From Hyaloperonospora brassicae (lineage: Eukaryota; Oomycota; Peronosporomycetes; Peronosporales; Peronosporaceae), in contig CANTFL010001387.1 of assembly GCA_947650285.1 (NCBI GenBank), positions 267,936-331,935 of the forward strand: a stretch of 64,000 bases of DNA, read 5' to 3'. Positions 6,417 to 28,603 of this stretch are shown here, in pieces (the stretch's first letter is position 1; each line of letters starts with the position of its first letter). A program made the position numbers and the translations under genes. Under the pieces are notes generated by a model. That model did not search any database. It was not told the DNA's origin and saw only the letters and a program-made list of their open reading frames with translations.

Positions 6417-7018
6417 TTTCCAGGCGAAAATGCTTCAACAGTATCTCAAAATCTCTGCACAACGTGTCACGCTGGTCGATAATTCAAGTGTGAGCTCAGC
6501 CTCAAGCGGCAGATTTGCCGGACGCCGCCGGTGGCTTCTCAAGTCGCTCTCCCTTCATCTCGACGCACGTGGAGGCGGTCAACGCCGCGCTGAAGGACCT
6601 GACTCGACCTCGTCGATGCTGGACGACTCGTTTTGAGCGGGTCAGGAAGAGCCCGTGACCGACGACAGGTTCATCGATGCAATTTGATGGTGTGGGTGCA
6701 GTGGGTCGATTTAATGTGGCGCACGTCAAATACGGTCGCATCCAGCACGACAACCGCCTGCGCCGGATGGGGTCGACCCCTCGTCGCAGATCTTTCGCTG
6801 ACGACGCACAATCTGATTCGCTCACTCACTCACTCACTCAGTCACTTACTCACTTACTCACTCAGTCACTTACTCACTTACTCACTCAGTCACTTACTCA
6901 CTTACTCACTCAGTCACAAACAGATCGATCGATCGATCGATCGATTGATTGATTTGACTTCACATCTGTGTGTTTGTGTGTGTGTGTGTAGCCACTTGAC
7001 AGACCGCTGGAGACGACA
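6417..7018. repeat. Spacer with stacked simple repeats upstream of TPS
   Basis: This 600-bp divergent spacer between tyrosinase and trehalose-phosphate synthase has no convincing gene. Its right half is a stack of repeats: a 24-bp minisatellite built of CACT/CAGT/TACT tetramers repeated about 3.5 times (about 6821-6918), a GATC/GATT tetramer tract (about 6923-6953) and a GT run (about 6968-6990). The stack lies within 30-200 bp of the TPS start codon, so it is part of the promoter or 5' UTR. Confidence 0.8.
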
Positions 7019-18403: not shown

Positions 18404-18408
18404 CGAAG
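18404..18408. repeat. Target-site duplication, left copy (CGAAG)
   Basis: Five bases directly before the left LTR, identical to 26319-26323 directly after the right LTR; 5 bp is the usual Ty3/gypsy duplication length. Confidence 0.95.
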
Positions 18409-18983
18409 TGTAGCGGGGCACTGTTGACTACGTACTAGTTGACCAGTACGGAGTATACTTCCACTGACGACAGTGGTCGACAGTGCCCTGCTAGGTGTTT
18501 TAGGGAAAACACAGAGGAAGGAAAGGAGACTAAGTAGTCAGACTAGTCTCTTGGTAAAAGTAAAACTGTATTAATACAATTAAGTCTTATTGTAACGGGG
18601 CACACCCTTGCGTGAACTTAACGCAAGGGTTTCGGGTGCCCCGACAGACGTACACGAGGCGAACGAGGAGCCGTAGGGAGGGAAAAAGTAAAACTGTTGT
18701 ATTAATATAATTAAGTCTTTTTGCTACTGTCTCTCTGTTTAACCTGACTTAATTATGTTAATATAACTGAGTGTATGGTGACGTCTCGTCACCACTCATT
18801 GCGCGCGTCCTGCTGCGATTGGTGGGTTGATATCATCACGATATCAACCAATGAGCAGACCCTTTGGTCGCTTCACCAATACCACCATTATCGGTGATAT
18901 TGTTCAAAGAATATTCAACTTAATATTCTTTATTGTCACTTTCTTTAAAGTGACAATTCCATTTAACGGGCTGCCCCGTTACA
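18409..18983 (-). repeat. Left LTR (3' LTR of the minus-strand element), 575 bp
   Basis: Begins TGTAGCGGGGCAC and ends CTGCCCCGTTACA. The first 180 bp match the right LTR with a handful of differences. It is about 130 bp longer because of an insertion at 18591-18720 that itself begins with the LTR terminus TGTAACGGGGCAC and ends with a second copy of the AT-rich TAAAACTG...AATTAAGTCT block. Confidence 0.95.
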
Positions 18984-18996
18984 TCACCCCCCCCTT
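18984..18996 (-). promoter_or_regulatory. Polypurine tract
   Basis: On the minus strand reads AAGGGGGGGGTGA directly abutting the LTR start; it primes plus-strand DNA synthesis in LTR elements and confirms minus orientation. Confidence 0.85.
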
Positions 18997-19115
18997 AACT
19001 GATAATCACTGTGTGACTATCGAAAACTTGGCGGCCACCCGTTGGGCGCCATTGGGACAGGGAGCACTTGTTGGGTCAGTTCCATTCACTTTCCGCTTGA
19101 CCTCGCATAGTTAAC

Positions 19116-20324
19116 ATGTCTATGCGGGGTGACTCAAGGCACACAGAGTCTGTGCCTGTGCCAGCTTCTGCGGCAGACGATTCGTCGTCTGCTGCTCGTT
19201 CTTCGCCTGCAGCAAGAGGTGCTGCAGGTGCACGCGGTACAACACCGCGTGCGCATGATGATTCCGACATTGAGGTCATCCACTCTGGCGAGTCAGACGT
19301 GTCTGACTCGGGCAATGCTGCAGAGGCGTCTCGCTCACCGGCGACGCCTCAGTGTTCGCCAAGGCCACTGCCGAACGAACGGACTCGTGAGTTGCAACAC
19401 AGTCTGTTCGGCAGTGATGACGAATCTGATGATGAGTATGTTTGCTCATCACCGAAATCAGCTCGTGCTCCTTCGCACGAGCGACCTGACGATGGTGCAA
19501 CCCATCGTCATACTGACAACCGTGGTACCAACAAAGGTACCACCGTGAAGCGTGATGAGCTGAAGCCGTGGCGTTTGCCCGAACGGCTTATCAATGGCTT
19601 GTCTCACGAGACAAGCCAACACCATCGAATGCCCTTATTCGATGCGACTGAGCTTCACGGCTTAAGTTCCAGCGCGAGCAACTTTCGCGCTGAAGAATAC
19701 TTCTATCTCGATGCCTTCCTTAGACATCGATGGTACAACAGCAACAGAAAGCGTGACAAAGCCTCGCTTTTGGCAGCGTGGAATGCGTTCGTCCAAAACG
19801 TAAAGAATTTTGGACGAGAAGGGTGGCTCAAGAAACTTGAAGCGGTACGCCTCAGGTTTGAAAAGCGAACGCCAACCGGTGCCAGGTACCGGTTGCACTG
19901 TTTGTCGAGTGAGGCAGACATTCCTTGCCTCACATGGGGAGACCCTTGTGCGAGTTGTGTTGACAACTCGCAGCGTGCACATAGGAACGTGTATTCCCTA
20001 AGTTCACCCTGGGGAAGGGCACACATCTCGTCTGAGATGCGGGACGCGATTGCAAACTTGCAATCCGTCTACAAGCGCCTAGGGCGCGTGTTTACCGATG
20101 GTCCCTCGGACCAATCGGATGAGTCTCGTCATATTGGTGAACGAGACCGGGCACATCCATCATCAGCTGGGAGCGGGGCTCCCAGCTGTTCCACGCGGGT
20201 GAATACCGCCTCCACTCGACGAGGTAACTCGTCCTTGATCCTGAATAGTCACGGTGGTTCAAGATACGCTCCACTAGAAAGCGTTGACCACCGTGTGAGT
20301 CCACCAAATGATGTGGCGGAGTAA
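19116..20324 (+). CDS. Antisense ORF A of the chromovirus (402 aa)
   Basis: Long plus-strand open frame in the stretch between the end of pol and the left LTR, opposite to gag-pol, overlapping the chromodomain-coding end (20092-20324). Met at 19116. Residues 1-150 are Ser/Asp/Glu-rich and probably disordered (for example DDSDIEVIHSGESD). Residues about 150-290 look folded, with aromatic and charged blocks such as EYFYLDAFLRHRWYNSN and AAWNAFVQNVKNFGREGWL. I do not recognise the family. Extra antisense frames at this position are known in some plant Ty3/gypsy elements, but no function can be assigned. No minus frame longer than about 110 codons runs through 19116-20090, so the plus frame is the coding candidate here. 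Confidence 0.6.
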   Translation: MSMRGDSRHTESVPVPASAADDSSSAARSSPAARGAAGARGTTPRAHDDSDIEVIHSGESDVSDSGNAAEASRSPATPQCSPRPLPNERTRELQHSLFGSDDESDDEYVCSSPKSARAPSHERPDDGATHRHTDNRGTNKGTTVKRDELKPWRLPERLINGLSHETSQHHRMPLFDATELHGLSSSASNFRAEEYFYLDAFLRHRWYNSNRKRDKASLLAAWNAFVQNVKNFGREGWLKKLEAVRLRFEKRTPTGARYRLHCLSSEADIPCLTWGDPCASCVDNSQRAHRNVYSLSSPWGRAHISSEMRDAIANLQSVYKRLGRVFTDGPSDQSDESRHIGERDRAHPSSAGSGAPSCSTRVNTASTRRGNSSLILNSHGGSRYAPLESVDHRVSPPNDVAE

Positions 20325-22198
20325 AAAAAGACCTCCTCCAGATCGTTCTGCTCACCATCTCGATCCTTACGAGATGGATCGCGCAATCAATGAATTGCGC
20401 GATGACTTGAAGCACGAGCGCGACCGGCGCTACGCTTCGACTGATACCGTGCGGAAGAACCGCAAAGAGCACGATGCTGATCGGGCGAGGGATCGCGCCG
20501 GATTATGCCACAGCGCAGCTTCAGGTCGAGCACGACGTCCGCTCCCTATACAGGGAGCGGGCGACAGCTCGCGGGGAGACATCTCGGTTGAGTTCCGAGG
20601 TATCATATCTGCGCGACCAGACGGATCGTCTGGAGCGCGAACGCAAGAACTTGATGGATGTTCTTGAACGTGGGGGCTATCGTCATCGGAAGAAGAAGGC
20701 TCGTACTGACAGTACGGCCTAAGCCTCCCCACGTAAAACGTAGGATGTGTGCGCATCTTACGTGACAATTCGATCGTGTATGCATTGTCCTTGCGATGCA
20801 ACACTCGAAATGGCCCAATGTACTTCGGAAGTAGTTTACTACTGCCGACACTAGTGACTGCATGTCCAGGTAAGTTTACCGTAGACAGTAGTACTAGGTC
20901 GTTAACCTTAAATGAAAGAGCATTTGCTCTTCCATTCTTGTCTGCGTTCCGTTTCTGACGGTCCACCGCATTTGCGATGGCGTCCTGAACGAAACGGACT
21001 ACCGCTTCTCGAGTCAGCAGGAAGTTCTCTGCTGACTCTTTGTTTTGTCTTTCAGTGCGCTTCGTGCGCACTGCTAAGAGATTGATCTCTTCTTCAGCGA
21101 GGTTGTCTTCTTCCTCGCTGGCATAATCGTTGACGATGCTGAATATACCAGCATCGTCATCATCATCCGAGTCAGTAATAGCGTCGCCGCTATTACTGAG
21201 GTGATCTTCTTCATCGATGTCGACTTGATCGACATCGGCATCATACGTGACGACGTTAGCGTCGACACGTGATGAGCAAGAGCCAAAACAGTTTTTGCTT
21301 AAGCGAGTCCCTCCCCCCTTATCCAAGCGTCACACTTTAGAAGGGTGGGCACACGTGGATGGCGTAGGCCATTCACATAGAACGGTGTATGCGTTGTGGA
21401 CGTAATAACGGAATTGTTGATGGCAAACTCAACCATCGGCAAGAACTCACTCCAATGTGAAAAGGAGTGGACGTATCCACGAAGGATCTCTTCGAGGACA
21501 CGGTTCGCACGTTCAGTCTGACCATCTGTTTCGGGATGATCAGAGGTTGACATCTTCAATCGTGTTCCAAGAGAACGGAACACGGTTTGCCAAAATGACG
21601 CCGTGAACCGAGGGTCAGGGTCGGATACGAGTTCACGGGGTAACCCGTGGAGTCTAAAGACCGTCTCTAGAAAGATACGAGCACAAACTTGAGCCTTGAT
21701 CGACTCAGGGACAGCAAAAAGATGCACGATCTTGCTGAATCGGTCAACAAACACAAGAATACCATTATTCTTGTGAGCGTCTTCGGTAAAACCGAAGACG
21801 AAGTCCATTAAAACGGACTGCCATCACTCTGTCGGAACAGGCAGAAGCTGCAATGGCACACGGGATGAAGGACTAGGCTTCACCCGTTGACAAACTTCGC
21901 AAGCACGTATGTACTTGCGGACAAACTGATACTGGCGTGGCCAGTAAAAGTCACGACTTACCGTGAGGTAAGTCTTTTCTCTACCACGATGGCCGCTTGT
22001 TGGGGCATCGTGATACTCATACATGATGCGTAAACGAAATTCATCATGGTCGGGAACGACGACACGAGGCGTGTCGTCGGCAACAGCTGTATAGTACAGC
22101 AATCCGTTGCGTGTACTATACCGATCCGATGAGGATCGGTACAACGCTGGTAAATCCCTCATGGATTTGCTGGATGGATTCGCCAGATGATCCATCAA
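20092..22198 (-). CDS. pol: integrase with GPY/F module and chromodomain
   Basis: Reading leftward: HHCC zinc-binding region (H in SGHRGR, then CEVCQRVKP), in-frame TGA at 21824-21826, the integrase core with VDRFSK (D), DPDPRF (D) and DHPETDGQTERANR (E) of the D,D-35-E triad, a frame change near 21300, an unusual acidic insertion (many D/E, about 21090-21250), the GPF-type module LPKYIGPFRVLHR...HPTFYVGRLRPY, and finally a chromodomain FLVERILNHRDY...YLVEWRRY...NSWEP (about 20150-20290). The integrase inserts the cDNA; the chromodomain is thought to target histone marks. Broken into at least three frames in this copy. Confidence 0.9.
20308..20722 (+). CDS. Antisense ORF B of the chromovirus, coiled coil, frameshifted
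   Basis: Starts with ATG overlapping the stop of ORF A (20308 versus stop 20322-20324), then shifts frame near 20470 into a second frame ending at 20722. Both halves are rich in charged heptads (INELRDDLKHERDRR; LSSEVSYLRDQTDRLERERK) and the C-terminus is basic (RHRKKKAR), so it reads as one coiled-coil protein with a frameshift. A run of seven A at the A/B overlap could also allow slippage that fuses A to B. Function unknown. Confidence 0.45.
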
Positions 22199-22297
22199 TC
22201 GCAGAAGATCCTTATCTTCCGCGTATGCCTTTCGTACGTCGTCAAGTAAACTTGATGACGGGACACTGACTGCCAGTGTCGCAACAGTGGGCTTATC

Positions 22298-24098
22298 CTA
22301 ACTGTTTGGTTGTGCGACCGGCTCGAAATCGGGCCGGCGCGAGAGCTCATCCGCGACGACAATTAGTCGTCCTGGTTTATACTCCACGGAAAAGTTATAC
22401 TCCGCGAAGAAAGAAATCCACCTTGACATCCTTTGCGAGAGGTGTGGGCTGTTTACGGCCGTGCGTAGTGACGCATGGTCCGTATAGACGATGAACGGTC
22501 TATCTCCCAAGAGATAGACCCAGAACTTGGCCAGTGCATACTTCATGGCAAGGAGTTCCTTGTCATGCACTGGGTAATTACGATCAGCTGCTTGCAGCTG
22601 ACGCGACTGATAACAGATGACGCGCTCCGCGCCATCTGCATCGGACTGCATTAACGCACAGCCGATTGCAAAATCGCTGGCGTCACAGACCACATGAAAT
22701 GGTCTATCCTGATCCGCAATCGCCAAGATCGGCGATTGCATCAATCTTTGCTTGATACCTTTAAAGGAACGCTGGCACTCAGCGTTCCATGACCACTTGA
22801 CATTTTTCTTGAGCAAGCAAGAAAGATGAACAGTCATCTCGGCGTAGTTGCGCGAGTACTTGTGCAAGTGCGCCGCTAAGCCAAGGAACTTCCTTAGTCC
22901 CTTGACATCGACTGGCACTGGCCAGTCGGTGATCGCCTTGATCTTTTCGGGATCAGGGCGGACCCCGTGTTTGCCGACGATGCACCCAAGAAGTGGTATT
23001 TCGCTAGCCGCGAATATACACTTCTTGAGGTTGGCGTACAACTTGTGCTTGCGCATAAGTTGAAGAACCTTACGGACGTGAGTTCGGTGAACTTCAACGT
23101 CCGTCTTTCCGTCCATATTCCGGCTATGGACGAACACATCGTCGAAGTAACTCGGTGCGAAATCGCGCACCGGTCTCAACAGATTTGTGACACATCTGTT
23201 GAATGTTGCAAGGGCATTGCTCAGCCCTATGTGACATAACTAGCCACTCCCACAGCATCCCGCTGGAGGTACTCACTGCTGTGAACGGGATGTACCGTTC
23301 ACGCATAATGATCTGATGGAATCCGTCCATCAGATCCATGGACGAAAAGATGGTACTCTTTGACATACCATCTATGATTACGTCCTTCCTCGGTATCGGC
23401 GTCTGAGCCGGTACCGTTGCAGCATTCAATTTGTTGAATGCGTGCACTATCCGCCACCCTCCTGTGGCCTTTCGCACACAGAAGGTCGGAGAGATGTGAA
23501 GGGATGTTGATTCCCTCACATGGCCCGCTGCTAAGAGATCGGCAAAGAACTTGTCGATCGCTAGTACTTGTTCACGAGGCAGTGGCCACTGCTTCATGAC
23601 ACAATACTTCGAGACCGGTTTGAGCTCGATCTCGTGTCGAGTGCCTTTGTCCTTAGGCAACTCGCAAGGTACGGATTCAGGGAACACATCCCTGAATTCG
23701 ATCAAATACTTATAAAAAGAATTTGCCTGAAGTGACTCCCAGGATTGGGACGCGTATCGCTTAATCCGAGTCTTCTCATCGATGACACTTTCGTTCATCG
23801 ATGAGCTGCTGAGAACCCTCTCGGTATCAGTAAACACCGTTGCCGATCGAATATCGGTAACGTACTCGTCCTCCGCGACGAGTACACAGATCTTCTTGAA
23901 TTTGCCACTACGCAGATCACGCAAGAACCGTTTCGGTTCTAGCGTTGGCAACTGAGTGATCTCCGAAGTTAACTTCGGAGGCACAATCAGATCAAGCGTA
24001 TAAGCGCCTACGCTTGATCCATCATTAACCAAGACATTCAGTGTCTCGATTACCTCCTGGGAAATCACTTCCACAGTATCTGGGTTAGCTTTCTCCAC
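22298..24098 (-). CDS. pol: reverse transcriptase and RNase H
   Basis: Reverse transcriptase blocks: KQWPLPREQVLAID, SPTFCVRKATGGWRIVHAF, IFSSMDLMDGFHQI, then after a one-base frameshift near 23235 GLSNALATFN and the catalytic YFDD box. RNase H follows with VVCDASDFAIGCAL, DKELLAMKYAL and FIVYTDHASL. It copies element RNA into cDNA and removes the template RNA. The frame 24098-23240 and the frame 23250-22298 would be a single protein without the shift. Confidence 0.93.
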
Positions 24099-24266
24099 AA
24101 TGTAGTGATCATCTACATTGTGTTCTTGTACAGTCGTGCTAACGACCGTACCACAAGTGAGGCCATCGCACTCGCTCGTAGTACACCCACGTGAGTGTGG
24201 GCGTTCTAAAATATTCGTCAGGTGATTATCTAAGGAACAAGTAGCAGGTGTCGTAACCTATCGATA

Positions 24267-24895
24267 CTACCAACTCACTCTTGGCTCGTATTTACTGAGC
24301 CAAGGCAATCCAAAGATGACGTCGAACTTGTCATCTAGGTCAAGCACGATGAAATCATCATCGTACTGTTCGCTTTTTAACGTGTTGTAGATTCCGACTA
24401 CACTTTTCTTCACAGTGATCGATGCGCCTGTCGCTAGGCGCACCTTCATCTTCGTTGGTGGGATCTCCCGCTCCACGAAGTTAAAACTTCCTGCCTCTAG
24501 CGACTGGTGACGAACAAAATTGTTCGACGCCCCACAGTCAACTAGGGCACGAAGTGACAAGTCTTTTGTCACTTCCAACTTCAAGGTGATGAGTGACACC
24601 TCATCACCAGGTGCAGAGACACACAGAAATTGTGTGTCGGGAGCAATCTTCTTCAGGAGATTTGCAAATTCTCTTGATGTTGCTGGATCAGTAGGGTGCT
24701 CCGCCCCTACTGACCCCGACCATTTTTTGATGGTCCACCTCGCTGTTGCGACTTCGCAACATCAACGGACCCTCGTCCTCCAGTTCTTCTTGCTGGTGGG
24801 TGAATACTGCGCTCAGCACCGCGAGGTTCTGAGCGGGGGATACTGCATTCATATGCATAGTGTCCCAGTTTATGACAGCGATGGCATCTCACCAT
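24267..24895 (-). CDS. CCHC zinc knuckle and retropepsin-like protease region
   Basis: The nucleocapsid knuckle CHRCHKLGHYAYEC (CX2CX4HX4C) lies at about 24880-24840 and the aspartic protease with DCGASNNF as active site at about 24540, followed by LATGAS and IFGLPWL. The knuckle frame differs by one base from gag upstream and from the protease downstream, so two frameshifts separate parts that are normally continuous. Confidence 0.85.
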
Positions 24896-25827
24896 TCGCT
24901 TTCATTTGCAGGGCGAGGTTTCTCGCCCTTGATATTACAGAGATCCATTGGGACTGGGCCTTTGACTGCTAATAGTCTTTGTGGACGATGCGGGGTCAAC
25001 GTAGCGTGAGACTGTCTCACGCTATAATCTTCTTGCTCCGCTGCGAAGATTTCCTCTGAGATCGTCTTTAGCTCTCCGCGGAACAGGTGGTCCCTAACGG
25101 GACCTTCTGAAAGCTTTTGAATAAAGATTGTGATCATCACAAACTCACTCACAGGGTTCACTACCATGCAGCTTGCAAGGTAGCGTACGTGCTGAGCGTA
25201 AGCGTGAACCTTACGCTTACCCTGTTTGATTCCAAGGAGTTCATATAGTGTTCTGAACTCTGCTCTGGGCGGCTCGAACGTCTCACTGAGCAGGGTCTTG
25301 AAGACATCTAACGACCCAAACACATTTGTGTCGTGCAACTTACGGTTCAGGGCTCAAGCTCTGGCTTGTCCTGTCAGGTTATACTGAGAGAATGATACTT
25401 GCATTCGCTCATCGTTGATGCGACGAGAATCGATGCCATCGTCCAGCTCAACGAACCATCTCAACAGGGATTCTTCCTCGACTCCCCGATACTTGGAGAC
25501 CTCTAGTTTTAGAGACTCCCGTCGACGCTCACGCGTCGGCTCTGCGGACTGAGACTTTTGTTGTCTCAGTGCTTCATTCCGCTGGTGATCTTGTTGTTAA
25601 AACAAGGTCACCTGAGCTCGCGACTAATCAAGTTCTCGTTGCAAGAACTTGCTGATGACGTCATGTTGCTGGCCCCTATCCCTTGAGGATAGCATGGCCC
25701 AGATGGCTTCCTCGCCAACGGTCGAACTCATTCGTTTGATCGCACTCCATTCGATGTCGCTCAAATGAAAGTAGCTTTTGCGGGATCCGTGACAGCTGTC
25801 GCCGTCTACATCGTCCAACATGTTCAT
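24889..25827 (-). CDS. gag of the chromovirus, interrupted
   Basis: Capsid-like region with LGSLDVFKTLLSETF-type and YELLGIKQGKRKVHAYAQHVRYL segments typical of Ty3/gypsy gag. The N-terminal part (25827-25624) and the middle are separated by stops, including a TGA at about 25354 where the frame otherwise continues (ARA-stop-ALNRKLHDTNVFGSL). Gag forms the particle that packages element RNA. Confidence 0.75.
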
Positions 25828-25861
25828 GTTGGGCGATGGGGTTGTGGTCCTTGGACGGACT

Positions 25862-25875
25862 ACAAAGTGCTACCA
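25862..25875 (-). promoter_or_regulatory. Primer-binding site
   Basis: Two bases inside the right LTR the minus strand reads TGGTAGCACTTTG; the first eight bases fit the 3' end of an initiator-Met-like tRNA (…TGCTACCA). Its position proves that the right LTR is the 5' LTR. Confidence 0.75.
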
Positions 25876-25877
25876 GG

Positions 25878-26318
25878 TGTAACGGGGCACTGTTGACTAC
25901 GTACTGGTTGACCAGTACGGAGTATACTTCCACTGACGACAGTGGTCGACAGTGCCCTGCTAGGTGTTTTAGGGAAAACACAGAGGAAGGAAAGGAGACT
26001 AAGTAGTCAGACTAGTCTCTTGGTAAAAGTAAAACTGTATTAATATAATTAAGTCCTATAACTCCTTGTATTTCTGTTGTCCTGACTTAACTATACTAAT
26101 GTAACCATATGTATGATGACATCTACTCACCACCCATTGCGCGCGTCTAGCAGCGATTAATGGGTTGATATAATCACGATATCAACCAATGAGTAGACCC
26201 TTCGGTCATCCCAACAATATCACCATGTCTTGTGATATTGTTAATAGAATATTCGACGTAATATTCTTTCATGTCAAATTTTTTAATGACAATTCATGTA
26301 TCGGGCTACCCCGTTACA
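25878..26318 (-). repeat. Right LTR (5' LTR of the minus-strand element), 441 bp
   Basis: Starts TGTAACGGGGCAC and ends CTACCCCGTTACA; nearly identical to the left LTR in the first 180 bp, more diverged in the remainder, and lacks the 130-bp insertion. Confidence 0.95.
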
Positions 26319-26323
26319 CGAAG
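26319..26323. repeat. Target-site duplication, right copy (CGAAG)
   Basis: Matches the left copy at 18404-18408; host reading frame resumes at 26324. Confidence 0.95.
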
Positions 26324-26631: not shown

Positions 26632-27338
26632 CTCGATGCCTCCCTCCTCCATTTAAGCGTCCGTGCTCGATGCCTCCCTCCTCCATTCAAGCGCCCGTGA
26701 GGCTATAGATCACGTATATACACTATTAGCACTTTGCTTTTCCAAAGAGCTACAACTATATTCTTTAGATTTAATCGTTTATACAGTTGCATCACGTGAA
26801 TGTTCTGTCTTGGTGTAGCGGAGCTACACAGCTTTTTAAGTCAGAGGAAGACTTAACGCTCAATGAGAAACTTTGGTTTAACGAACCCGACTCAAAGATT
26901 CAACAGCTCTACGAGCAACTTTGGTTCTACAAACCCGACTCAGAGAGTCAACAAGCTCAGAGAGCTTACGGTCCCTGTTCCAGGGGGACCAAACGATTCA
27001 AGAGAATCACAGCACAGAGTGCCCAAGAGCAGCTACCTTTACAGGCGTTGCTAGCTCTTCCGATCAAGACGCCTCGCAAGGCACGTGTCTTATGTTGATC
27101 AAAATGGGAACTGAATTTTATTTCTTCTTTTAACCTAAAAGAACACCGTAGAACAAAGTAAATAACCTACTCACTTATGTACTAAATAAACCTATTAAAA
27201 GATCTCGTAATCAATTGTTGACAGACATCAGTCTTCAACAATTGATACTTGTGTTCTAATATTACTTTAAAGGGGATCCCATCCCTTGTGTGTACCATAC
27301 CTATTGTCGACTACCAGTCGACGTGTAACCCCGTTACA
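26632..27338. repeat. Remnant of a second, related LTR
   Basis: Ends in the same LTR terminus (CCCCGTTACA at 27329-27338) followed by CCTGGTCTGCG, which looks like a primer-binding site in plus orientation. A 34-bp tandem duplication sits at 26632-26665/26666-26699. The interval is also rich in short perfect stems, for example 27211-27244 and 27314-27326. The left boundary is not determined. Confidence 0.55.
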
Positions 27339-27390: not shown

Positions 27391-28603
27391 TCAAAATAAT
27401 TGCAAGAATATGTATTCTAGGACCTCTTCACGTTTTACGCGAGTAAACAAGAGATATGCACGACCATCTAGGCGTAGTGTGTGAGTGCTTGTGTAAGTGA
27501 ACCGCTGGATCAACAAACTTTCGAACCCTCTTGACGTCGAATGGCACAGTTTATCGGTGATCTCCTTGATATTTTGATAGATTGAATCGTACGCCATGTT
27601 TTACCTCAATACAGCCAAGAAGTTTTGATTCGGTTACCGCGAACATACACTTCTTGCGGCTGAAGTACACCTTATACTCACGCATAAGTGTAAGCACTTT
27701 CCGGACATAAATTATGAGTGCCCCCACTTTTGGACTTCTGTCCGTAGTCTGGTTGCGGACGACAAATCGTCTCGATAACTCGGCTACAGTTTGCACCGGC
27801 TCAATCGATAAGCATCACACTTGATTCGGCTGAGGTATTGGTCAGCTCTTGCGGTATGAATAGCCATTTCCAGAGCTTACTACCGAGAGTGCTCACTGCT
27901 ATACACGGGATGTACTGTTCGAGCACTGCTTCTGATCGAATGAGTCCATCAACTCTATGGCAAAATTATAATACTCTTAGACTTATCATCTATATCCTTC
28001 TTCGGTACTGGCGTCGGAGCCGCTACCACTGCAACATTCAACTCATTTAATATATGCACTATCTGCCATACCCCTGTTGATTCACGCACACAGAATGTCG
28101 GTAATATACGTGTGGACTTCTTATTCCTCACATCACTCGCTGCTAAGATACTGAAAAATGACGTGTCGATCTCAATAAATGGCCCACGGGGCAGTGATCA
28201 CTGCCCCATTACAAAATATGCCGATCCTTGTTTCAGATCGATCTCGTGACAAGTGCTATTATTCTTAAACATCTCACACGTCACAAAGTTAAAGAGCTCA
28301 TCCTTGTATCCGATCGATGTCTCATAGAAAGTGTTTGAAGTAAGCGGCTCCCAGGTTGACTTATCCATACGAGTCGTCTCGTCGTTGAAACGTTGTCTCA
28401 TCATCGAGCATCTAAGAAACATTTAGCTTAGTGCGTACCACTTCCGATCGAATATCGTTGACATTATCGTCTTTCTCGACGAGTACGCCGATCAGCTTGA
28501 CTTTGCCACTATCCAGGTATCTCAAGATCCGGTTAGGTTTCAGCGTTGTAGCGGTTGAAATTGGGTGGTCCCCGAAGACAAATCGGAGGCGCACTCGAAT
28601 CAA
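27391..28603 (-). pseudogene. Decayed pol fragment of a related Ty3/gypsy element
   Basis: The minus strand encodes broken pieces homologous to the main element: REYKVYFSRKKCMFAVTESKLLGC (like 23050-22970) at 27700-27600 and the region before RT (like 23990-23600) at 28603-28198, with a nucleotide-level match around 28000-28090 to 23390-23470. Many stops and gaps. It is in minus orientation although the adjacent LTR end reads plus, so this is a rearranged remnant. Confidence 0.8.

Follow-up and report, generated by a model that had tools for sequence, protein, structure and literature searches.

Results

Anatomy of the element

Why would a retrotransposon be packed from end to end with short perfect inverted repeats? 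The question was raised by the first-pass annotation of a 64,000-nucleotide stretch of the Hyaloperonospora brassicae genome (contig CANTFL010001387.1, positions 267,936 to 331,935; referred to here as the window). On the minus strand of the window, positions 18409-26318 hold an old, decayed copy of a Ty3/gypsy LTR retrotransposon with the following features (no strand is given for target-site duplications and hairpins).

18404..18408: left target-site duplication, 5 bp, CGAAG, read from the sequence
18409..26318, minus: Ty3/gypsy LTR retrotransposon, old copy; 73 perfect stems, background level beyond its edges
18409..18983, minus: 3' LTR, TG...CA ends, 5 stems
18932..18957: hairpin in the 3' LTR, 11-bp arms, loop of 4
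19116..20324, plus: antisense ORF, 402 aa in this copy
20164..20188: hairpin, 11-bp arms, loop of 3
20430..21326, minus: integrase C-terminal part (Tf2-1-like SH3)
21172..21199: hairpin, 12-bp arms, loop of 4, the longest in the element
21299..21808, minus: integrase core (rve)
21824..22198, minus: integrase zinc-binding domain (H2C2)
22298..23179, minus: end of reverse transcriptase and RNase H (RT_RNaseH_2, RT_RNaseH)
23124..24098, minus: first part of reverse transcriptase (RVT_1, slightly under cut-off in the broken piece)
23310..23336: hairpin within reverse transcriptase, 11-bp arms, loop of 5
23775..23805: hairpin, 11-bp arms, loop of 9
23990..24019: hairpin, 11-bp arms, loop of 8
24267..24599, minus: aspartic protease piece (RVP_2)
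24889..25338, minus: Gag piece (Retrotrans_gag, weak match, E = 0.006, below the curated cut-off)
25002..25024: hairpin, 11-bp arms, loop of 1
25866..25877, minus: putative primer-binding site, CCTGGTAGCACT in sense, adjoining the 5' LTR; role inferred from sequence
25878..26318, minus: 5' LTR, TG...CA ends, 4 stems
26213..26242: hairpin in the 5' LTR, 11-bp arms, loop of 8
26319..26323: right target-site duplication, 5 bp, CGAAG, read from the sequence

The LTRs of this copy are 98% identical to each other over ∼183 bp and 80% identical over ∼303 bp. Protease, reverse transcriptase (RT), RNase H, and integrase follow in that order, in pieces in the window copy and in one open frame in a young copy, where a 384-aa ORF lies upstream of pol at the gag position. 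The TG...CA LTRs, the 5-bp target-site duplication, the PR-RT-RNase H-IN order, and the SH3-like integrase end are shared with oomycete Ty3/gypsy elements (Metaviridae), and RT/RNase H is 51 to 83% identical to matches named Peronospora or Phytophthora among the 120 matches listed of 1560. The element differs in its saturating, length-tuned perfect hairpins, which extend over its whole length. No relative was found in the viral contigs searched.

The antisense ORF sits between pol and the 3' LTR, reaches 534 aa in the young copy C364, and has relatives in public contigs and in Peronospora. A Pfam profile search with this ORF returned weak matches only, all below cut-off, including one of Mis12 type (E = 0.026). 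Plant Retand LTR retrotransposons carry an antisense ORF in the same position, with a Mis12-type match (PMC11963269); Retand has a TRP28 domain, whereas the antisense ORF of the window family gave no TRP28 match. The main text of the Retand paper contains neither "hairpin" nor "secondary structure."

Stem density and its controls

Stems were counted as perfect inverted repeats with arms of at least 8 bp and a loop of at most 20 nt. The 73 stems of the element, 41 with arms of at least 9 bp, 26 of at least 10 bp, 10 of at least 11 bp, and 1 of 12 bp, confirm the saturation described in the first-pass annotation, whose 22 listed stem-loops all have perfect 8-11 bp arms at their exact coordinates. 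Its estimate of about two stems by chance agrees with 30 dinucleotide shuffles (mean 2.3, maximum 5), and the other 56 kb of the window hold 25 (11 in 18.4 kb on the left and 14 in 37.7 kb on the right). The codon-preserving control was run on a young copy, L022, rather than on the broken window copy; its coding piece (3999 nt) contains 57 stems, whereas 100 synonymous-codon permutations averaged 1.83 and reached 6 at most. The stems of L022 end at the LTR edges, with 7 in each LTR and 0 and 1 in flanks of 591 and 825 bp. The two younger copies that were read over their full length carry 12 to 15 perfect stems per kb from LTR to LTR, with arms mostly of 8-11 bp and with 10 to 18 per kb in every part versus 0 to 1.3 in the flanks. 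They are denser in stems than the decayed window copy and, because the old copy has fewer, formation of the stems after insertion was ruled out. All 54 family loci, with one place present twice (L058 = L003), exceeded background at 37 to 57 stems per 4 kb or 22 to 49 per 3.3 kb; the two locus sets, comprising the best 30 of 40 scored DNA matches (L001-L030; 2253 first-look candidates) and the best 30 by RNase H profile of 150 scored (L031-L060), are both biased toward well-preserved copies.

Such density was absent from the host genes tested, as the first-pass annotation had also observed, and eight host ORFs were at expectation, as were three flanking stretches of 12 kb, which rules out a host-wide mutational habit. 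The dinucleotide and synonymous-codon controls, the host genes, the other transposons described below, and the 54 family loci together leave practically no room for an origin in chance, base composition, codon usage, or assembly error, and nothing was found in favor of such an origin. The relation of GC content to arm length, expected if stability were fixed, was weak (rho -0.38 to 0.05; p < 0.05 in 1 of 12 runs), and gaps between stems, inspected for regular spacing, appeared random or slightly clustered.

A second gypsy family with shorter hairpins

A related gypsy family in the same genome is saturated with hairpins of 5-bp arms and 3-6-nt loops and shows no excess beyond 6 bp. The second family has its own, shorter hairpin size, and the trait is not confined to the window family. 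These 5-bp hairpins gain little stability over those of 5 bp that arise by chance (-4.89 versus -4.60 kcal/mol), and the family's antisense frame has no detectable similarity to the antisense ORF of the window family. The first loop base is A at a frequency of 0.38 in the window family and T at 0.38 in the second family, in which a pyrimidine stands 5' of the loop (C 0.44, T 0.31). In a coding-only count for the window family, A stood at 0.30 and T at 0.34, which makes the A bias of its loops non-specific there. No comparable hairpin excess was present in four Copia, two MULE, and eight other reverse-transcriptase loci (the four Copia were at background), which rules out a property of all transposons; among the transposon loci sampled, only related gypsy loci had the trait in its strong form.

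Arm conservation and covariation

Third codon positions on the branch of the young lineage had changed at 4 of 178 sites in arms versus 100 of 688 outside (p = 5e-7), and another three-copy comparison gave 1 of 118 versus 100 of 744 (p = 4e-6). For the dead window copy, the terminal branch showed no such difference (14/241 versus 45/658, p = 0.65). Across eight three-copy comparisons, which overlap and, like the double-change comparisons below, are not independent, third-codon sites in arms were slower in five and without significant arm constraint in three; these three, and the absence of significant constraint in four of seven comparisons for the second family, count against the selective explanation that we favor. 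Stems of 4 bp, mostly arising by chance, lacked such depletion (14/180 versus 52/643; 24/190 versus 77/668). Third-position variants common to at least 4 of 29 copies fell at 11 of 366 arm sites, 8 of 103 loop sites, and 54 of 864 sites outside. LTR sites differing between two subfamilies numbered 9/118 in arms, 9/27 in loops, and 33/155 outside, where unpolarised LTR rows carry an ascertainment bias favoring conserved arms; with an outgroup, arm constraint was significant in only one of seven LTR rows, which also counts against selection. This subfamily comparison included no compensated pair; in L035, one clear case lies in the other LTR.

Compensatory change in the arms, proposed as a check in the first-pass annotation, was borne out for double changes, with 149 compensatory (67%) versus 73 non-compensatory cases, against 26-42 versus 95-118 in slid controls; it was not the usual course of change, since one-sided changes (669) were the commonest kind. 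The apparent counterparts of the 25002..25024 hairpin in L061 and L064 differ by two compensated pairs. The arms are conserved and covarying between subfamilies, and the hairpin constraint is lost in the dead window copy.

The same observations bear on an artefact of copying, in which the growing strand folds onto itself or jumps from one imperfect arm to the other during reverse transcription, so that quasi-palindromes are homogenised and grow to a tract length set by the family's enzyme. Correction of quasi-palindromes by template switching perfects short inverted repeats in coding DNA (PMC8604942; PMC3820800), and in yeast such arm homogenisation has been documented for DNA polymerase (PMC8604942). 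Homogenisation is expected to leave perfect Watson-Crick arms, strand symmetry, and compensated pairs, of which the last are expected under selection as well; further support for the artefact comes from the restriction of the strong trait to related gypsy loci and from stem places that are not common to different families (homologous within 3 nt at 1 of 12, 1 of 7, and 1 of 5 places in the relatives L065, L072, and L076, with ∼10% expected). Against it, none of 218 differing loops of equal length showed a clear spacer inversion (207 identical loops and 95 of unequal length were left out of the scoring); six loop rows had an inverted match above the direct match, the best being 0.6 over a 5-nt loop. 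As many as 14 of 29 copies carry a one-sided variant in common, which has probably survived several cycles, and unbiased homogenisation should not slow non-coding LTR arms, yet these differ at 9 of 118 sites versus 42 of 182 elsewhere, with arm constraint significant in one of seven polarised rows. Despite its 5-bp peak, the second family is not enriched in 5-6-bp helices that contain a single internal mismatch, and its arms reach no further than 5-6 bp. The template-switching reverse transcriptase suggested in the first-pass annotation does not by itself account for the apparently slower LTR arms, the lack of clear spacer inversions, or an arm length that is sharp and specific to each family. 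On its own, template switching is a poorer fit than selected strand-symmetric self-pairing, and we regard the copying artefact as unlikely.

Strand symmetry of predicted folding

The predicted RNA folding energy per 120-nt piece gave mean z values of -3.20 and -3.42 on the two strands of the window copy and of -4.98 and -5.28 on those of L022, compared with -0.18 to 0.04 for two window flanks; z was below -2 in 33 of 33 sense pieces and 97% of antisense pieces of L022. Mismatched helices held G-U in sense and in antisense in 57 versus 55 cases in one copy and 48 versus 64 in another. Variants common to at least four copies produced G-U in sense 6 times and in antisense 9 times (51 copies, with the L003/L058 place present twice and L001, L035, and L056 excluded). 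The sense minus antisense difference in predicted hairpin energy was -0.07 ± 0.09 and 0.06 ± 0.07 kcal/mol in the two families. No strand preference was found in folding energy, G-U tolerance, or hairpin energy. The loops are mildly biased between strands, with the sign reversed from one family to the other, which counts against the explanation that we prefer.

These results weigh on a role of the folded sense RNA in packaging (through dispersed Gag-binding stems), protection, or translation control, with the arm length set by Gag. The very low predicted folding energies in every L022 piece, the family-specific stem size and first loop base, and the pyrimidine 5' of the second family's loop are consistent with such a role. 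Selection on sense RNA only should tolerate G-U over A-C, and the two were equal; the antisense strand is predicted to fold as well as the sense, and the A bias at the loop start was not specific in the coding-only count. The packaging or translation control considered in the first-pass annotation lacks its predicted sense-only G-U tolerance, and we judge a structured genomic RNA distinctly improbable. Strict Watson-Crick pairing in the arms and symmetry between strands are as compatible with DNA as with paired RNA strands, and the stems might instead fold in single-stranded cDNA or as small cruciforms that affect integration, recombination between copies, or chromatin. A use in DNA offers no evident reason why 5 bp should suffice in one family and 8-11 bp be needed in another; moreover, extrusion is not expected of cruciforms whose arms span 5 bp, and this option appears quite unlikely.

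Discussion

Selection for strand-symmetric hairpins is highly probable. It likely keeps the 8-11 bp hairpins from LTR to LTR in the family of the window element, where they would make the sense and antisense strands each fold on themselves and so withstand pairing, whether mutual or with small RNAs. The position of the antisense ORF between pol and the 3' LTR leads us to expect convergent transcripts, a natural source of double-stranded RNA, and host RNA silencing, escape from which was among the uses suggested in the first-pass annotation, would be the pressure favoring the hairpins. Given such selection, silencing or duplex avoidance as its reason has somewhat less than an even chance; the full account, in which selection keeps both strands self-folded against mutual or small-RNA pairing, is offered tentatively. 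We infer selection rather than biased copying, a benefit in RNA rather than in single-stranded cDNA, and host RNA silencing as the pressure. Three Piwi-domain matches reveal Argonaute-like genes in the host genome, and in Phytophthora 25-nt small RNAs derive mainly from transposable elements (PMC3804510). The fraction of 25-nt pieces that self-fold to -3 kcal/mol or lower is 0.59 in the window family and 0.63 in the second family, versus 0.41 and 0.37 in codon permutations and 0.56 in one host gene; self-folding at this guide-RNA length exceeds that of the families' own codon permutations and hardly exceeds that of the one host gene. Against our preferred explanation, one-sided changes at paired positions are more numerous than compensated ones, the second family's hairpins barely surpass chance ones in stability, self-folding of 25-nt pieces is close to that of a host gene, the other sampled transposon loci manage without hairpins, the sharp upper limit on arm length is given no account, and the L035 copy has an antisense frame, alike at its start, that is open for 132 aa only.

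A literature search found no description of saturating, length-tuned hairpins over a whole Ty3/gypsy element, and we know of none. RNA viruses with genome-scale ordered RNA structure (GORS) have folding energies far under those of shuffled sequence along the coding genome. The window family resembles them in predicted folding energy well under shuffles along its coding sequence and differs in that its stems are short, perfect, and strand-symmetric, have no G-U preference and a family-specific arm length, and occur in the LTRs of a DNA-integrated element. In RNA phages (leviviruses) both strands fold strongly and locally, as in the window family, and this is thought to keep plus and minus RNA apart; unlike the window family, leviviruses replicate through RNA only, do not integrate, and have stems of mixed length with G-U. 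Quasi-palindrome correction differs from the situation here, where there is no clear spacer inversion, arm divergence appears slowed, and arm length is sharp. Inverted repeats in retrotransposon LTRs are shared with maize Sireviruses, whose palindromic cis-regions are linked to small RNAs (Bousios 2016, via PMC10760457); Sireviruses are Copia elements with palindromes in an LTR cis-region, whereas the window element has a Ty3-type pol and stems everywhere.

A perfect hairpin about every 70 letters across protein-coding, antisense, and LTR sequence is a constraint outside standard models of retrotransposon evolution and a caution against treating synonymous sites in transposons as neutral clocks in every case. 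The family-specific stem length (5 bp versus 8-11 bp) implies that an identifiable enzyme, coat protein, or silencing factor must set it, and the system offers a way to test if structure by itself is able to protect a transposon from silencing by small RNAs. In the boldest reading, which we hold to be somewhat unlikely, one Ty3/gypsy clade evolved a hairpin code by which each strand, LTRs and genes included, would pair with itself within ∼25 nt at a family-fixed stem length (5 bp or 8-11 bp), so that neither strand would serve homology-based silencing. If this is true, the code would act as a shield across the whole genome, compatible with the encoded proteins and of a type not previously described, and the stem length would report the enzyme or sensor evaded.

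Hairpin density in the element, its young copies, and controls

A single minus-strand Ty3/gypsy LTR retrotransposon occupies 18409-26318, with a 5-bp duplication, CGAAG, on either side. The Gag (a weak match), protease, reverse transcriptase (RT), RNase H, integrase, and SH3-like end domains each lie in a separate broken frame. Of 1560 public RT/RNase H relatives, 120 were listed; where these carried a species name, it was mostly Phytophthora or Peronospora, with a few from Globisporangium and Aphanomyces, which suggests that the host is probably a peronosporalean oomycete. The LTRs are 98% identical across ∼183 bp and 80% identical across ∼303 bp, despite the matching target-site duplication; gene conversion or recombination possibly accounts for this unevenness.

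18409-18983 and 25878-26318: LTRs
19116-20324, plus strand: antisense ORF, 402 aa, between pol and the 3′ LTR

Stems were counted as perfect inverted repeats with arms of at least 8 bp and loops of at most 20 nt, unless stated otherwise. All 22 stem-loops listed in the first-pass annotation exist, and the excess that it claimed over a chance level of about two was confirmed: the element contains 73 stems, whereas 30 dinucleotide shuffles averaged 2.3. The other 56 kb of the window contain 25 stems, four of these being overlapping palindromes scored within one short GATC microsatellite in the host flank (6923-6945). Outside the element, at 27210-27246, two 12-bp arms separated by a 13-nt loop form a lone inverted repeat, and a piece of another gypsy element at 27415-28603, 67.6% identical to the RT region of the main one, has background hairpin density.

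Over the same 4-kb region, 46 to 57 stems were found in each of 29 other copies versus 37 in the window copy. In C364, a young copy with two identical LTRs, stem densities per kb were 17.8 in the 5′ LTR, 14.4 on the gag side, 14.3 in pol, 15.4 in the 3′ region, and 17.8 in the 3′ LTR, with 0 and 1.2 in the flanks. L035, representing a second subfamily (∼90% identical in pol, LTRs 99.1% alike), had 10.3 to 18.1 by part and 0 and 1.3 in the flanks; the whole-copy densities were ∼15 and ∼12 per kb, respectively. The excess withstood the codon-preserving control proposed in the first-pass annotation, with 57 stems in L022, a 3999-nt coding piece of the young copy, versus 1.83 in 100 synonymous-codon permutations. 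Its stems favor the two registers in which the wobble position faces first or second codon positions (27 and 21, versus 9 in the third register), as expected if they arise through synonymous changes under protein constraint; chance stems show the same lean more weakly. The folding energy of L022 has a z of about −5 on both strands, and all 33 sense pieces have z < −2. A segment of the young copy that is absent from L035 (L022 ∼400-720) is equally dense in hairpins.

Conservation and covariation of the arms

The stems frequently keep their positions and covary between copies, with individual examples from gag, the LTR, and the antisense ORF region. Three or four copies at a time were compared in 24 overlapping sets, in which double changes at paired positions were compensatory in 149 cases and not in 73, versus 26 to 42 and 95 to 118, respectively, when partners were slid by 1 to 3 positions; the remaining pairs comprised 5513 unchanged, 669 with one-sided changes, and 683 on gaps. 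The compensation that was to be looked for in other copies is thus evident in the double changes, but the one-sided changes run against it.

Third-codon sites were slower in arms than elsewhere in five of eight three-copy comparisons of the first family. On the branch leading to the young copy, changes in L035 stems numbered 4/178 in arms and 100/688 in other sites (p = 5e-7), and for stems of another copy, L056, the counts were 1/118 and 100/744 (p = 4e-6). When L056 served as outgroup, L022 stems showed no depletion in arms on the L035 branch (20/234 versus 46/589), and that for L035 stems on the L056 branch was not significant (p = 0.16). Neither was depletion seen on the window copy's own branch (14/241 versus 45/658), where neutrality is expected, or in the arms of 4-bp stems, a near-chance control. 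In the LTRs, which have no known protein, differences between the two subfamilies fell at 9/118 arm, 9/27 loop, and 33/155 remaining positions (p = 0.0005 for arms versus both), but only one of seven rows was significant when this test was polarized. Third-position variants common to at least 4 of 29 copies occurred at 11/366 arm, 8/103 loop, and 54/864 outside sites; singletons avoided arms less (24/366, 15/103, and 82/864, respectively). Template switching during copying, suggested in the first-pass annotation as one possible source of the stems, accounts for their perfect arms, but it fits worse with the slowed LTR divergence of arms, the persistence of one-sided variants, and the absence of clear spacer inversions in 218 differing loops.

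Short hairpins in a second gypsy family and survey of other loci

Six of the 30 loci recovered by RNase H profile (L039, L046, and L052-L055) belong to a second gypsy family of the same genome, with 53 to 59% protein identity to the first across most of pol. This family has no excess of long stems. With loops of 3 to 12 nt, perfect stems in L052 number 75 at exactly 5 bp (22.7 in codon permutations) and 10 at 6 bp (5.6 in permutations); none has 7 to 10 bp, and one has 11 bp. The 5-bp excess is limited to loops of 3 to 6 nt. By the same loop range, L022 of the first family has 16, 15, and 18 stems with arms of 8, 9, and 10 bp and 2 and 2 at the next lengths. The 5-bp excess was present in all nine successive 400-bp pieces of L083, which adjoins L052 (5-10 versus 1.1-1.6), and three 12-kb host stretches had 41, 40, and 41 such hairpins versus 41.0, 45.0, and 49.0 expected.

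L052 (C12:46658-49957), L083, L046, L039, L054, and L071: second-family loci with 5-bp hairpins
L083:2495-3814, plus strand: antisense open frame of the second family, 440 aa up to the locus end, where it is still open

These hairpins are not unusually stable. A pyrimidine precedes the loop in 75% of them (79% versus 46% of chance hairpins in a coding-only control), which suggests that real hairpins fold. Arm constraint was significant in three of seven second-family comparisons.

Three other gypsy loci (L065, L072, and L076) showed a lower-grade, 12- to 17-fold excess of stems of at least 8 bp (12, 7, and 5 versus 1.0, 0.5, and 0.3), with arms of 8 to 10 bp at places differing from those of the first family. 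No comparable excess was detected in eight other reverse-transcriptase loci (L066-L070 and L073-L075), four Copia loci, two MULE loci, or eight host ORFs, the last in agreement with the first-pass annotation's impression of host genes. L066 folds somewhat better than its shuffles (mean z −1.22/−1.03).

Strand symmetry and the antisense ORF

An A-C mismatch in the sense strand is a G-U pair on the opposite strand. Counts of helices carrying one or more sense G-U pairs versus one or more A-C mismatches were 57 versus 55 in the young copy and 48 versus 64 in L035, and one-sided G-U and A-C states numbered 6 and 9 among variants in at least four copies, 13 and 23 in two or three, and 45 and 52 among singletons. 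In the second family, 5- to 6-bp helices with one internal G-U were at expectation (42 versus 42.0), whereas perfect ones were threefold enriched (85 versus 28). With loops of 3 to 6 nt, end mismatches included, and a total length of 5, G-U, A-C, A-G, and C-T numbered 34, 15, 25, and 32 versus 19.5, 17.9, 17.8, and 18.7 expected, respectively, which we interpret as 4-bp stems whose end pair can be of any kind rather than as tolerance of G-U. Hairpin energies did not differ between sense and antisense strands. Packaging of the sense RNA, a use raised in the first-pass annotation, is disfavored by this symmetry. The loops depart from full symmetry, however: in sense, those of the first family contain more A (0.32) than T (0.24), and those of the second more T (0.32) than A (0.24).

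L062:83-1684, minus strand: antisense ORF of the young copy, 534 aa

This ORF has 12 related database proteins (32-87% identity), and its relatives occur in Peronospora matthiolae and in ENA contigs; matches to Pfam were weak and below cut-off. From the same start, L035 is open for 132 aa. The placement of an antisense ORF between pol and the 3′ LTR parallels plant Retand elements. The second-family antisense frame has no detectable similarity to that of the first.

These observations are consistent with selection favoring perfect local self-complementarity within a single strand, regardless of which of the two is present. Strict Watson-Crick arms would be demanded alike by two RNA strands or by one DNA strand, and the hairpins may act at a DNA stage. 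This proposal does not account for the limits on arm length. Among the titles and abstract openings listed, mostly outside subscription journals, none described an LTR retrotransposon saturated with hairpins, a scope that does not establish the absence of such an account in print.

We favor RNA over DNA as the level of benefit on several grounds: the antisense ORF, since opposing transcripts would meet; the slowing of RNA strand annealing by strong local folding, known from work on RNA phages; and three Piwi-domain matches in the host genome. A further ground is that, according to one study, 25-nt small RNAs of Phytophthora come mainly from transposons (PMC3804510). Hairpins of the young copy span 24.4 nt on average, near that size, which may be coincidence because the second-family 5-bp hairpins span 13 to 16 nt. 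Strong local folding of the element's transcripts would hinder both strand annealing and small-RNA access.
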